Below are positions 32,291 through 36,641 of a stretch of DNA of 39,681 nucleotides, piece by piece. Source of the stretch: Deltaproteobacteria bacterium (GTDB taxonomy: Bacteria; Desulfobacterota; Binatia; UTPRO1); contig JAJCZP010000290.1 in NCBI GenBank assembly GCA_029262315.1, positions 1-39,681 on the forward strand, read 5' to 3'. Both the position numbers and the translations under genes were made by a program. Positions within the stretch are counted from its first letter, which is position 1; every line of letters begins with the position of its first letter. Under the pieces are notes generated by a model. That model made no database searches, was not told the DNA's origin, and saw nothing but the letters and a program-made list of their open reading frames with translations.

Positions 32291-32332
32291 CCCGGGTACT
32301 ACATCAATCGGCCCCGGGTACTACATCAATCG
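32291..32332. repeat. 22-bp tandem duplication over the stop of the HupE-like gene
   Basis: CCCGGGTACTACATCAATCG occurs at 32291-32310 and again at 32313-32332, two bases apart. The second copy contains the last codons and TAG stop of the minus-strand HupE-like gene, so the end of the gene has been copied once just past its stop. Confidence 0.85.
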
Positions 32333-33502
32333 ACTGACGAACCAGTAGAACCCGAGAGCGGTCACACCGCCCAGGCTGGCCTCGCGCCAAAGTCCGCGAC
32401 CGAGGACACGAACGATAGGCCAGGCGAGTGCAACCACGATCAATTGGCCGATCTCGACGCCGACGTTGAACCCGAAGAGCGCGCCGGCGACGCGTGCTGG
32501 CGGAAGGCCCACGTCGAGTAGAAAACCGCCGAAACCGAGCCCGTGGATCAGGCCGAATAGAAGAGCAACGGCGGCACGCACACGCTCCGGGTGGGTCGCC
32601 CGCGCGAGCAATGGGAAATGGCAGCCAGCGAAGAGCGCAAGACCGAGCAGGCTGATGGTTGGCACCGCGTCCACGCCGAGCCCCCCCGCCCCGGCAACCA
32701 ACCCCAGTCCGAGAGCCCAGGCGATACCCCACGTCCGGGCGCTCCCAACGGTGATGACGCCTTCACACGCGACGAGCGCGATCGACAGACCGATCAATGC
32801 CTCGACGGCGGGCGCCTCTGGTCGCAGTAGCTGGAGTGCGGCCACCGCCAAGGTCACACTGTGACCGATCGTGAAGCCGCTGACGACCACGACGACCTCC
32901 CGTCCGCCACGACCGACCAGGAGCAGCGCGAGCAGGAACGCGAGATGGTCGAGGCCGGTCGCGATGTGGGTGAACCCCAGCCAGACATACCGGCCGAGGC
33001 TCCGCCCTTCGGACGTCCCGGGAGCATCACCCAACGCCCAACGGGGCTCGCGCGCGGAGAGGATACGTTCGGCGGTCTCTCCGGCCCGACGCACCTGGGC
33101 GAAGTGCAGATGTGCGGGGGCCACATCGAGCAAGAAACGACTCTCGATGGTACGCGCACCCGGTCCACAGCGCAGCGCCCACGCGATGCCGACTCGATCC
33201 TCCGCGGGGCGGAGCACCTCCGGCGGCGCGACGACAGTGCATCGCTCTTCGCCCGCACGCAGACCCAGGCGCGAGGTCGCATACGCTGCCAGCCATTGGT
33301 CGAGTTCGTCGCGCGCGCGGCTCGCCACCTCCGCCTCAGGAACCCTGGTGAGCTCGAGCAACGGCACCCGCACGACGACGCGCGCCCCATGCTCGGTGAT
33401 GGTCCACTGTGACACCGATTGACTGCGGGTATGTGCCTCGGCGATGAGCGGCACGCCCACCAAGATACACACGAACGCGAGCGTGGGCGTGCGGATCCTC
33501 AC
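32321..33502 (-). CDS. HupE/UreJ-like membrane protein
   Basis: A 393-residue protein of the HupE/UreJ_2 type. A signal peptide (ending AEAHTRSQ) precedes a periplasmic domain to about residue 165, then six or seven membrane segments beginning YVWLGFTHIATGLDHLAFLL, the family G-x-x-H-I-x-x-G-x-D-H-L motif, with further His in HFPLL and GLIHGLGFGGF. The family is linked to nickel or cobalt transport in some members; metal and direction are not known here. The start is a GTG overlapping the TGA of the isomerase gene (GTGA), indicating translational coupling. It is the last gene of a five-gene operon; a 22-bp tandem repeat covers its stop. Confidence 0.85.
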   Translation of the reverse strand: MRIRTPTLAFVCILVGVPLIAEAHTRSQSVSQWTITEHGARVVVRVPLLELTRVPEAEVASRARDELDQWLAAYATSRLGLRAGEERCTVVAPPEVLRPAEDRVGIAWALRCGPGARTIESRFLLDVAPAHLHFAQVRRAGETAERILSAREPRWALGDAPGTSEGRSLGRYVWLGFTHIATGLDHLAFLLALLLVGRGGREVVVVVSGFTIGHSVTLAVAALQLLRPEAPAVEALIGLSIALVACEGVITVGSARTWGIAWALGLGLVAGAGGLGVDAVPTISLLGLALFAGCHFPLLARATHPERVRAAVALLFGLIHGLGFGGFLLDVGLPPARVAGALFGFNVGVEIGQLIVVALAWPIVRVLGRGLWREASLGGVTALGFYWFVSRLM

Positions 33503-34395
33503 GGCAGCGGGTCGGACCGAACGATGGTCGCTCGCGCCCGGAGATCCCGCAGATACTCGGCAAGCGCTCGCTCGCCTGCACGACGGCGATACTCGGCACG
33601 GATCGTCGCCTCCATACCGGCAAACTCCGGCAGGAAGGCGTCACCACGCTCGACGAGTTCGAGCACACGGTACCCGCCCCCAGACCGTATGGGCGCGCTC
33701 ACGGCACCGACCTCGAGAGCCAGCACCGCCCGGAGCGCTGTCGGACCGACGTATTCGCGGAGCTTCGCTGGAGGCAGCATGATGTCGGGCACGCCAGCAC
33801 CGATCCTGGGGCCCACGGAAGCGGCGACCACCGCGAAGGACTCTCCCGCCTCCACGCGCGCGCGCACGGCCTGGACACGCCGCCGCGCGGCCGCCTCGTC
33901 CGCCCCGACAGGCACGAACACCTCGCGAACCCGAAGGCGTCCCGGTTGCCGAAAGAGATCCGGCTCGTCCAGGTAGAAGCGCTCCAGCTCGGCCGGCGAG
34001 GGTTCCGCATCGCGCGCCGCGGTCGTGACCGAGGCGATCATTGCATCGACCAGACTCGCGCGCACCGTCCGATCTACGCGGGCGAACCCCAGATCGAGCG
34101 CCCGCTGGACGAGCAGCTCCTCGTCAATCAAACGCTCGAGCACCCGACGTTGCTCGGCAGCGTCGGGTGCTGTGCGACGATCACGCGTCAGCGCGTCGAC
34201 GGCGCGCGCGAAGTCCTCGGCATCGATCTCCGCCTCGCCTACTCGAGCGGCAACATCGGCGTGCAACGCGCCGGAGCCCGCCGGGCGTCGCACCAGTCCC
34301 AGCAAGGCCACCGTCATGCCAACGACGGCACCGGCGATTAGGAGCGCGGACGGACGTCGGGACGATGGCGGGCCCCCGGCGTCCCCCGACCGCAT
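33499..34395 (-). CDS. Membrane-anchored parvulin-like (PpiC/SurA-type) peptidyl-prolyl isomerase
   Basis: A 298-residue protein. An N-terminal anchor (ALLIAGAVVGMTVALLGLV) places the rest in the periplasm. The region to about residue 150 is a SurA/PrsA-type chaperone part (VGEAEIDAEDFARAVDAL, LERLIDEELLVQRALD), followed by a parvulin-like domain (REVFVPVGADEAAARRR, AGESFAVVAASVG, LPPAKLREYVGP, GGGYRVLELVER). Key parvulin residues are partly diverged, so isomerase activity is not certain. The ATG overlaps the TAA of the DUF3604 gene (TAATG) and its stop overlaps the HupE-like start, so all three are translationally coupled. A foldase role for the Cys-rich DUF3604 protein is a reasonable inference. 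Confidence 0.82.
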   Translation of the reverse strand: MRSGDAGGPPSSRRPSALLIAGAVVGMTVALLGLVRRPAGSGALHADVAARVGEAEIDAEDFARAVDALTRDRRTAPDAAEQRRVLERLIDEELLVQRALDLGFARVDRTVRASLVDAMIASVTTAARDAEPSPAELERFYLDEPDLFRQPGRLRVREVFVPVGADEAAARRRVQAVRARVEAGESFAVVAASVGPRIGAGVPDIMLPPAKLREYVGPTALRAVLALEVGAVSAPIRSGGGYRVLELVERGDAFLPEFAGMEATIRAEYRRRAGERALAEYLRDLRARATIVRSDPLP

Positions 34396-36641
34396 TACCG
34401 ACCCGGTCCGCGCGATCCGTGCAGGTAGATCGGAGACGACCAGGCGCGTTCTTCGGCCAGGAGGAGACAGTCGTCGTCAATCGACGTCCGCTCGTCCCCA
34501 TGACACGGATGCACGGCAATGCAGTTCCCCTCGACGTCGCGATCGCAGCGGAGATTTCCGGCGTTCACGGTCGGACTCGCCTCCTCGATCGCACGGACGT
34601 AGTAGACCATGTCGCGGCCAGCGCTGCCGTACTCTGGGTCATCGAACTCCACGGCACACCCCGCGGGATCGCCGCATGCGAAGACGCGCCACGGATCCTC
34701 GATGAGTTCGTCGATCGGCTCGTCGGGGCGCGTCTGCGGACGGACACGCACGACCTCGATCCGCGTGATGATCTTGCGTGAGTCGCTGGGATGATAGCAC
34801 TCGCCGCGGCAGAGCGACTCGAGCCGGTCGGCCGGCAGACCGGAGACACTGTGGGCGGGACAGCCCGGTTGTTGCTCCAGGGCACCCACCGCTCGCACCC
34901 GAAAACGCGGCGCGCCCTGGAACTCCACGATCGACCCCATGGGCTGTGCGCCCTCGTCGGCATTCAAGAGATCGAACCAGAGGAGGATCCGATCCCCGCT
35001 CGTGCCATAGACCTCGCGCCGCTCCAGCGCCTCCCAAACCGAATCTCTGTCACGTCCGCTCGCATGCGTCGCCACCAACCCGCCCGTCACGAAGAAGGAC
35101 GATTGGCGCTCGGTGTCCCACACCTGCAGCTGGATCAACTCACGCGGTGCCGTGGGATCGAAGGCCACCGACGTCGGGTCATCCCCGTCCGGCACATGCG
35201 TCGTGGCGTACTTCGTGCCGAGTTCATTCGCGGTCCGCGCCTCGGTCATGCTCGTCCGAGCATACTCCTTGTAGCCTGTCCCAGGGCGCGCACTGTGGTT
35301 GTCGCTGGACGCCAGAAAGCCGAACTGGAAATGCCGAGGAGCCGCAGGATCATCGAAATTCCCGATCGCAAGCGCGTACTGCGCACTTCCACCGGGACGG
35401 TAGGCGAACGCCGGTGCGTAGCAGTCGGTGCACTGCCCGCACTCGCCCCAATCCTCCATCGTGGCGCCGGGAACCGTCTGACGCCCAGCGGCCCCGGCCG
35501 CGAGAAAATGCCGCTCCGCCTGCGCCACGCGACGCTCACACTCGTCGGCGGGCAGGTCGCCACAACGTGCGCGAATGATCTCGCCCGCGACGTGGCAGCA
35601 CGGTTGATAGCCCTCGGACGGCTCCGGGCAGATGGTGTTCCCCTCCGCATCGTATTCGGCGGCTCGCCAGTCACGATACTCCTCCGAGTTACCGTGGCCG
35701 GAAAAAACCTCGAGTAGTCGTTGGCGCCCGGGATCGTGCTGGTCCCCTCCAAGCTGTTTGTCGAGCGATGATCCCGGCGGGGTATAGAGTCCCCATGACA
35801 GGCCGTGCGGTATCACCATGCTCGGAAAGCCCCACTGTCCGAGCTTTTCGAACAGGACCTGCGGTGTCGGCGCCTCCTCGATACAATCCGCCGGAAGCGC
35901 GCGGGTATCGACGCCTTCTGGACAGAACGGCTTACCGGCGAGGTCCTCGACCTTGTAATCGAGATCCTGCACCTGACGGCGGCTCGCAAAGTCGGCATAC
36001 GGCGCGAGGAAGCGCAGGAACAGCGAGCGATCCTGGCGCATCGCCTTGGTCGCGACCGCGCCGGACGTAATCGGACGCGCAGGCACCTCATCCTCGGCGG
36101 TGTCGCGAAAAATGACGTTCTTGTGGCCCCAGTGGGTCGCCGGCGTCAGCCCAACCTGCGTCCACTCGAATCCGAGAAAGGTCACGAGGTCCGGATTGGT
36201 CGGATCGCCGGAGAGCGCATTGCATTGCCGCACGCTGTCCTTGATGAGGCCCCAATGGCGCGGCGTCAGGGCCTCGGCATGGTCGGTGTGGGCCCAGAAA
36301 TCTAGATCGGCGCAGTAGCGCGCGAAGTCACACGCGTCGGCAGGCGGATGCGCGCCCTCTCCCTGAAAGATCGGCAGGCTCCAGGCGAACGCGTCCATCG
36401 AGTACGTCGTGTGGACGTGGAGATCCCCGAACAGGATCTGCTTGTCGGACGACCGGGCGCCGATCTCGTGCCGCGCCACTCTCTGGCGAGCGGCACGTTC
36501 CGCCACCCACTGCGCAGGAAGCGCCGCCCCCTGAATCTCCCCGCTCCCCTCCGGTGTCGGTCGATAGTCCAACCAGATCGCCAGGACCAAGACCACCAGC
36601 AACAGCGCCACCCCTGCCAACACGCGAACAAGCCGCTTCAT
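34395..36641 (-). CDS. DUF3604 protein with PHP-type metal site
   Basis: A 748-residue exported, membrane-anchored protein of the DUF3604 family. A hydrophobic segment at residues 7-23 is the signal/anchor. The fold has PHP-type metal motifs: H75 and H77 in FGDLHVHTTYSMDAF, H118, D120 and H121 in FWAHTDHAEAL, then VTFLGFEWTQ, MVIPHGLSWGLY and FLASSDNHSARPGTGYKEY. Many Cys in the middle and end (ECERRV, GECGQCTDCYAP, CHGDERTS) suggest disulfides. No substrate is established; PHP folds hydrolyse phosphoesters, but this family is uncharacterised. It starts 12 bases after the amidohydrolase stop and overlaps the next gene by one base. The last three operon genes look like one functional unit. Confidence 0.9.
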   Translation of the reverse strand: MKRLVRVLAGVALLLVVLVLAIWLDYRPTPEGSGEIQGAALPAQWVAERAARQRVARHEIGARSSDKQILFGDLHVHTTYSMDAFAWSLPIFQGEGAHPPADACDFARYCADLDFWAHTDHAEALTPRHWGLIKDSVRQCNALSGDPTNPDLVTFLGFEWTQVGLTPATHWGHKNVIFRDTAEDEVPARPITSGAVATKAMRQDRSLFLRFLAPYADFASRRQVQDLDYKVEDLAGKPFCPEGVDTRALPADCIEEAPTPQVLFEKLGQWGFPSMVIPHGLSWGLYTPPGSSLDKQLGGDQHDPGRQRLLEVFSGHGNSEEYRDWRAAEYDAEGNTICPEPSEGYQPCCHVAGEIIRARCGDLPADECERRVAQAERHFLAAGAAGRQTVPGATMEDWGECGQCTDCYAPAFAYRPGGSAQYALAIGNFDDPAAPRHFQFGFLASSDNHSARPGTGYKEYARTSMTEARTANELGTKYATTHVPDGDDPTSVAFDPTAPRELIQLQVWDTERQSSFFVTGGLVATHASGRDRDSVWEALERREVYGTSGDRILLWFDLLNADEGAQPMGSIVEFQGAPRFRVRAVGALEQQPGCPAHSVSGLPADRLESLCRGECYHPSDSRKIITRIEVVRVRPQTRPDEPIDELIEDPWRVFACGDPAGCAVEFDDPEYGSAGRDMVYYVRAIEEASPTVNAGNLRCDRDVEGNCIAVHPCHGDERTSIDDDCLLLAEERAWSSPIYLHGSRGPGR

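Follow-up and report, generated by a model that had tools for sequence, protein, structure and literature searches.

The window analysed here, a contig of 39,681 nucleotides from a deltaproteobacterium of the class Binatia (JAJCZP010000290.1), encodes on its minus strand a DUF3604 protein, a parvulin-like protein and a HupE-like permease, in this order and head to tail. Across the genomes of the class the three genes are inherited together, and each kind of DUF3604 is accompanied by its own clade of HupE proteins. That they are inherited together suggests a common, apparently undescribed role in the envelope, and we consider, at a probability of roughly 55%, that the trio is a co-inherited envelope module for transition-metal handling, which would serve an exported metallohydrolase with a PHP fold.

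Co-inheritance and linkage of the three genes

We have carried out a survey of 98 genomes of the window's class, in which HupE_UreJ_2 proteins are found in 60 genomes, DUF3604 in 58 and relatives of the parvulin in 90. Matches were taken as window-type (W) at thresholds set by us, namely E≤1e-20 for the parvulin, ≤1e-60 for DUF3604 and ≤1e-35 for HupE; the latter sits at a clear gap, with W-type matches at E≤1e-39 and the next match at 5e-26, and the remainder are denoted B. All three W-type genes occur in 43 of the 98 genomes and none of the three in 48. Considering DUF3604 and the parvulin, both are present in 44 genomes, a single one in 3 + 3 and neither in 48 (Fisher test, 2e-20). Presence and absence agree in 92–96 of the 98 genomes for each pair of W-type genes, as compared to 79–81 when labels are shuffled within families: for DUF3604 and parvulin the agreement is 92 versus 79.6, and none of 20,000 shuffles was as high. 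Within the window's own family the set is found in one genome out of six, that of the window, with all three genes there.

The trio neighbourhood also exceeds chance. The 96 matches to W-type DUF3604, spread over 47 genomes, include 19 that have a W-type parvulin at 5 kb or less (18 of these on the same strand) and 18 that have a W-type HupE at such a distance, the expectation from a rough genome-size calculation being about 0.25. A parvulin is found within 1 kb and on the same strand in 41 of the 45 W-type HupE genes; of the other four, one has it about 7.5 kb away (genome G043) and one on a different contig (G042), and in two a second, weaker parvulin adjoins HupE (G055 and G067). This difference in linkage, 41/45 versus 19/96, indicates that parvulin and HupE form the core, with DUF3604 as a looser third member. 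A set of 95 HupE-anchored regions (35 W and 60 B by profile score), hand-picked mostly among the matches listed, has a same-strand parvulin nearby in 33 of the 35 W-type and 33 of the 60 B-type regions; one of them (G014:C257) was chosen via the parvulin list, and another (G043:C99) was extended so as to include the parvulin. In an all-against-all comparison of the open frames of HupE regions the recurrent genes are HupE, parvulin and DUF3604; the remaining large clusters consist of frames antisense to the three genes or of rare neighbours. A fourth conserved member was considered and rejected, as none emerged from this comparison, in which the amidohydrolase and CoA-transferase encoded upstream of the trio did not stand out either.

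The close DUF3604 relatives in named genomes, taken alone, spoke against such a neighbourhood, as both partners were found in the flanks (up to 8 kb) of only 3 of their 41 loci (L016, Sinimarinibacterium flocculans DSM 104150; L019; L020, Sandaracinus sp.). HupE_UreJ_2 is nevertheless present somewhere in 36 out of 36 genomes holding such relatives, 36 of the 41 loci having been covered and the other five (L022, L031, L033, L043 and L052) assigned to genomes already counted. The window's own genome has two further DUF3604 genes with parvulin and HupE alongside (contigs C182 and C40). The preliminary description of this DNA had suggested that the three products are stoichiometric partners, a view that rare co-occurrence of homologues would have refuted. 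The outcome mostly favours it, given the agreement of presence and absence in 92–96 of 98 genomes per pair and the pairing described below, but adjacency of DUF3604 is the minority state, in 19 of 96 copies and 3 of 41 close relatives, and strict stoichiometry is therefore unsupported.

Pairing of DUF3604 subfamilies with HupE clades

DUF3604 subfamilies and HupE clades are matched to one another. In a tree of 93 HupE proteins, built by a quick method, all 20 proteins encoded beside a W-type DUF3604 fall in one clade of 38 rows, all 17 beside a canonical DUF3604 in a different clade of 33 rows, and the three beside a third kind of DUF3604 in a third clade, with no change of DUF3604 label beyond the minimum. 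The exception is locus L122, where both DUF3604 kinds lie near a B-type pair; this is one of two rows scored as B with a W-type DUF3604, the other (L182) having a HupE frame that is broken in two and is W-type on genome search. The rows scored as W with a B-type DUF3604 (L150 and L178) correspond to truncated W-type DUF3604 fragments. On the DUF3604 tree the linkage is clustered, with 7 changes, at least 4 of which are forced, versus 16.3 in shuffles.

Some low-score, more distant DUF3604 genes were also noted, in the window's own genome (contig C113, L087) and at L101, L108 and L130; in the last three the adjoining HupE belongs to a clade of its own and no parvulin is present.

The HupE-like permease

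The three domain calls of the preliminary description are borne out by Pfam: the HupE-like protein matches PF13795 (HupE_UreJ_2) at 134.4 bits (cut-off 24.5), the DUF3604 protein PF12228 at 80.7 bits (cut-off 20.4), in two partial stretches only, and the parvulin-like protein PF13145 (Rotamase_2) at 44.8 bits (cut-off 27).

As read from the sequence pattern, the HupE-like protein is cleaved after a signal peptide of 23 residues, between AEA and HTRSQS, so that the mature protein would start with a His. This His1 is found in 38 of 39 W-type rows; the remaining row is without its N-terminus. The pattern used to search for it (a small residue and His after a hydrophobic stretch) is biased towards finding His, and was passed by 55 of the 62 B rows, the 7 others being left out of the B alignment and of the HupE tree. 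In the W clade, 38 of 38 rows also carry an H-x-H motif (mature residues 108 and 110) together with a Cys pair, contrary to the other rows, where H-x-H is found in 1 of 55. The HX5DH motif, which we take to be the nickel permease motif of HupE, is present in 38 of 38 W rows and 53 of 55 others. The Sinimarinibacterium and Sandaracinus copies keep the invariant residues of the W clade.

An AlphaFold2 model was obtained from 4 sequences, with a mean predicted local distance difference test score (pLDDT) of 64.7. The modelled N-terminal β-sandwich (residues 1–134) matches ZrgA (8f1b; Z 10.2, root mean square deviation (rmsd) 4.5, 129 residues aligned), PA4063 (7bgo; Z 9.6, rmsd 4.7, 130 aligned) and the anglerase RbAng-1a (9gce; Z 8.7, rmsd 3.9, 133 aligned), and the protein therefore groups with these three: as judged from the model, it is anglerase-type. 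Matches of the membrane part to ZIP and MFS transporters (Z 5–7) are within noise for helical bundles and were not used. Sequence and profile searches of the PDB with the HupE-like protein, as with the DUF3604 protein, yielded nothing credible. On the periplasmic side, the His1/H-x-H domain would bind a transition metal, either Cu, Ni or Zn.

The DUF3604 protein

On the tree, the DUF3604 protein of the window belongs to a divergent branch beside the canonical copies. Its model (mean pLDDT 84.5, from 24 sequences) has as first match BVU_3505 (3e38; Z 16.7, rmsd 3.3, 232 aligned), followed by EndoQ, RNase AM and the PHP domains of Pol III. The alignment comprises the window and 23 of the 41 close-relative loci, leaving out 16 that failed the motif pattern, L034 (best copy on the opposite strand) and L053 (short), and at ≥95% conservation it retains D73, H75, H77, D83, H121, E159, H170, H173, H279, H316, D447 and H449, which we presume to be the metal motifs of the PHP fold, as well as 16 Cys residues. 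The fold match and the conserved D/H/E set agree with the former assignment of this product as PHP-type, and its description as Cys-rich and anchored is in accordance with its 22 Cys and a fully hydrophobic N-terminal stretch of 18 residues. Since the N-termini of its relatives, inspected by eye and by a hydrophobicity count, are membrane anchors or lipoprotein-like signals, the domain is placed outside the cytoplasm. Altogether, we predict a PHP-fold enzyme outside the cytoplasm whose metal-type site is conserved. Membership of the CehA/McbA family (NF038032) was rejected, the score being 23 bits against a cut-off of 80.

The parvulin-like protein

The parvulin-like protein is composed of SurA_N_3 and Rotamase_2 domains, with a weak alignment to SurA and a score against PF00639 (21.0) just below the cut-off of 21.7. 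At the positions of the two usual active-site His residues, which we assume from Pin1 and SurA, the window protein has VREVF and GYRV; the second His is kept in many relatives. As the window copy has neither, isomerase activity is doubtful and a role as chaperone seems likelier, so that the periplasmic foldase formerly proposed may stand as a folding helper but hardly as an isomerase. In a search of the trio proteins against PHROGs, the parvulin gave the only match, a weak one to a family without an assigned function. Two parvulin-like matches are present at L164, L166 and L169, and at L160, which is without DUF3604; the gene order at L164 and L169 is parvulin, DUF3604, parvulin, HupE.

Organization of the locus

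The TAATG shared by DUF3604 and parvulin and the GTGA shared by parvulin and HupE, already noted in the preliminary description, are both present in the sequence, giving overlaps of 1 and 4 nucleotides (Table 1). Overlaps of 1 and 4 nucleotides are common in bacterial operons. A start codon is possible at −4 or −1 in 58 of 71 related parvulin/HupE junctions and in only 8 of 30 related DUF3604/parvulin junctions, which indicates that the tight joint between parvulin and HupE is conserved, while DUF3604 and parvulin are usually separated by a short gap. The overlaps alone were thus rejected as proof of stoichiometric partnership, being ordinary and, between parvulin and HupE only, well conserved. 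A scan of the locus for promoters and terminators gave no signal exceeding that of shuffled sequences.

Table 1. Features of the three-gene locus, with positions in the window.
Feature	Position	Strand	Details
DUF3604 (PF12228) gene, predicted PHP-fold metallohydrolase	34395-36641	minus	748 residues, ATG start, N-terminal membrane anchor, 22 Cys
Membrane-anchored SurA_N/parvulin (Rotamase_2) gene	33499-34395	minus	298 residues, ATG start, without both usual parvulin His
HupE/UreJ_2 permease gene with N-terminal anglerase-like domain	32321-33502	minus	393 residues, GTG start
Signal peptide of the HupE-like protein	33434-33502	minus	23 residues, cleavage between AEA and H, read from pattern
Codon for mature His1 of the HupE-like protein	33431-33433	minus	His in 38/38 complete W-clade rows
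H-x-H codons of the HupE-like protein (mature His108, His110)	33104-33112	minus	38/38 W-clade rows, 1/55 other rows
HX5DH motif of the HupE-like permease (mature 156-163)	32945-32968	minus	from alignment
Base common to DUF3604 stop and parvulin start (TAATG)	34395	minus	from sequence
GTGA overlap of parvulin TGA stop and HupE GTG start	33499-33502	minus	from sequence

A perfect direct repeat of 20 nucleotides is found at the 3' end of the HupE gene (32291-32310 and 32313-32332, 22 nucleotides from start to start), the second copy covering the HupE stop codon. Upstream of the trio, also on the minus strand, are genes for an amidohydrolase (PF07969, 36654-38339), whose end is 12 nucleotides from the DUF3604 gene, and for a type III CoA-transferase (PF02515, 38432-39679). 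On the plus strand, some kb away from the gene for the parvulin, a gene for an FKBP-type peptidyl-prolyl isomerase (PF00254, 29873-30613) adjoins an AMP-binding (acyl-CoA ligase-type) gene.

A proposed role in metal handling, and its alternatives

In the module that we favour, the N-terminal domain of the permease would catch a periplasmic transition metal by means of His1 and H-x-H, for exchange with the channel of the permease. The parvulin-like protein would be a dedicated chaperone, rather than a general isomerase, either for the permease domain with its Cys pair or for the Cys-rich hydrolase. The PHP hydrolase would be the enzyme served, in that it takes metal from the system or acts on a substrate connected with it. 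The earlier view of the trio as folding helper, metal supply and metallohydrolase is plausible in this light: the co-inheritance, the pairing and the metal-type sites are documented above, and it is the flow of metal, from the HupE-like permease to the DUF3604 protein, that we only infer.

A number of points weigh against this reading. The W-type DUF3604 copies are away from the pair in 77 of 96 cases, as are 38 of the 41 close relatives, and four genomes (G021, G027, G062 and G068) have about 10 or more W-type DUF3604 matches each, mostly unlinked to HupE. The HupE model itself is of modest confidence only (mean pLDDT 64.7). The weak point is nevertheless direction: a periplasmic hydrolase is not easily supplied by an importer directed to the cytoplasm, and in the anglerase-HupE model of PMC12537917 metal moves into the cell. 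As related HupE/UreJ proteins are taken to be importers towards the cytoplasm and the hydrolase lies outside, direct metal supply would need export or a periplasmic hand-over; the possible arrangements would be hand-over by the permease domain, a permease working outwards, or a hydrolase that aids uptake.

The last arrangement leads to metal scavenging, in which DUF3604 would cleave a periplasmic ligand, a phosphoester or a metallophore-like compound, and the anglerase-HupE would import the freed metal, with the parvulin folding the permease domain: the hydrolase would then serve the permease. This agrees with the import direction proposed for anglerase-HupE (PMC12537917) and with the specific pairing of DUF3604 and HupE clades. 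Yet varied substrates, and not a single metal complex, are suggested by those genomes in which many DUF3604 copies are unlinked, and DUF3604 is without a known substrate, so that we regard scavenging as unlikely, if worth keeping in view. It is less probable still that parvulin and HupE are the sole functional partners and DUF3604 a frequent bystander on the same mobile or clustered block. The near invariance of the pair, the minority adjacency of DUF3604 and the at least 4 changes of linkage on its tree are all consistent with a bystander; but 48 of the 51 genomes without a W-type parvulin are also without a W-type DUF3604, and so clean a pairing of subfamilies is unexpected for one. Finally, transport by the HupE-like protein of a non-metal, such as the DUF3604 product, is very improbable, in view of the invariant His1, H-x-H and HX5DH and of a fold that resembles zinc- and copper-binding domains, even if no transport assay was found for this HupE clade and its sequence differs from those given for Ang-1 and Ang-2 in PMC12537917.

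Returning to the metal-handling module, a more far-reaching proposal may tentatively be made, which we hold to be possible but on balance improbable: a third class of anglerase-permeases, with a His1 + H-x-H site and a private anchored chaperone, could be devoted to the metallation of exported PHP-fold hydrolases, with several DUF3604 subfamilies each having a matched set of permease and chaperone.

Comparison with known systems

The anglerase-type permease domain (since 2025), the PHP fold and the parvulin fold are already known, while the clade with H-x-H and the Cys pair appears, from sequence comparison, to be new. A literature search, which comprised few subscription papers and preprints, gave no report on the trio, on the DUF3604/HupE pairing or on the H-x-H clade, and no function for DUF3604, which one paper names in passing in a table. 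Searches on 'HupE UreJ' and on the Pfam accessions found none, and 'anglerase' retrieved PMC12537917 only, whose main text, by term search, mentions neither DUF3604 nor parvulin.

Like the PHP phosphoesterases (BVU_3505 of 3E38, RNase AM and the PHP domain of Pol III), the DUF3604 protein has the fold and the metal-type residues, but differs in being, as predicted, extracytoplasmic and Cys-rich and in having an added C-terminal β-rich part. The parvulin-like protein shares SurA_N_3 and Rotamase_2 with the SurA/parvulin family, but differs from it in its anchoring N-terminal helix, in its tie to HupE genes and, for the window copy, in the absence of both usual His. As to the permease, ZrgA and PA4063 (8F1B, 7BGO) are the best fold matches of the N-terminal domain and share its Cys pair, which in ZrgA is a solved disulfide; in contrast, they are free-standing proteins encoded beside ABC transporter genes with no HupE fusion, and their zinc ligands are not at a mature N-terminal His (PMC9820375).

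The closest relationship is to the HupE/UreJ_2 anglerases, for which a His after the signal peptide and a copper-bound structure (9GCE) were described in 2025, with dissociation constants of 74 nM for Cu and 220 nM for Ni, sites composed of His1 + Asn41 (Ang-1) or His1/Asp33 (Ang-2), and DUF4198, indigoidine A-like proteins, PfkB kinases and unknown proteins named as neighbours (PMC12537917). The HupE-like protein of the window has the same signal peptide, invariant His1 and β-sandwich domain followed by the PF13795 permease, but contrary to Ang-1 and Ang-2 its clade adds the invariant H-x-H and Cys pair, His108 and His110 being candidate ligands. The W clade thus extends this recent class with a different and richer set of invariant His residues, and the one-to-one pairing of subfamilies offers a direct handle on metal acquisition by exported metalloenzymes.

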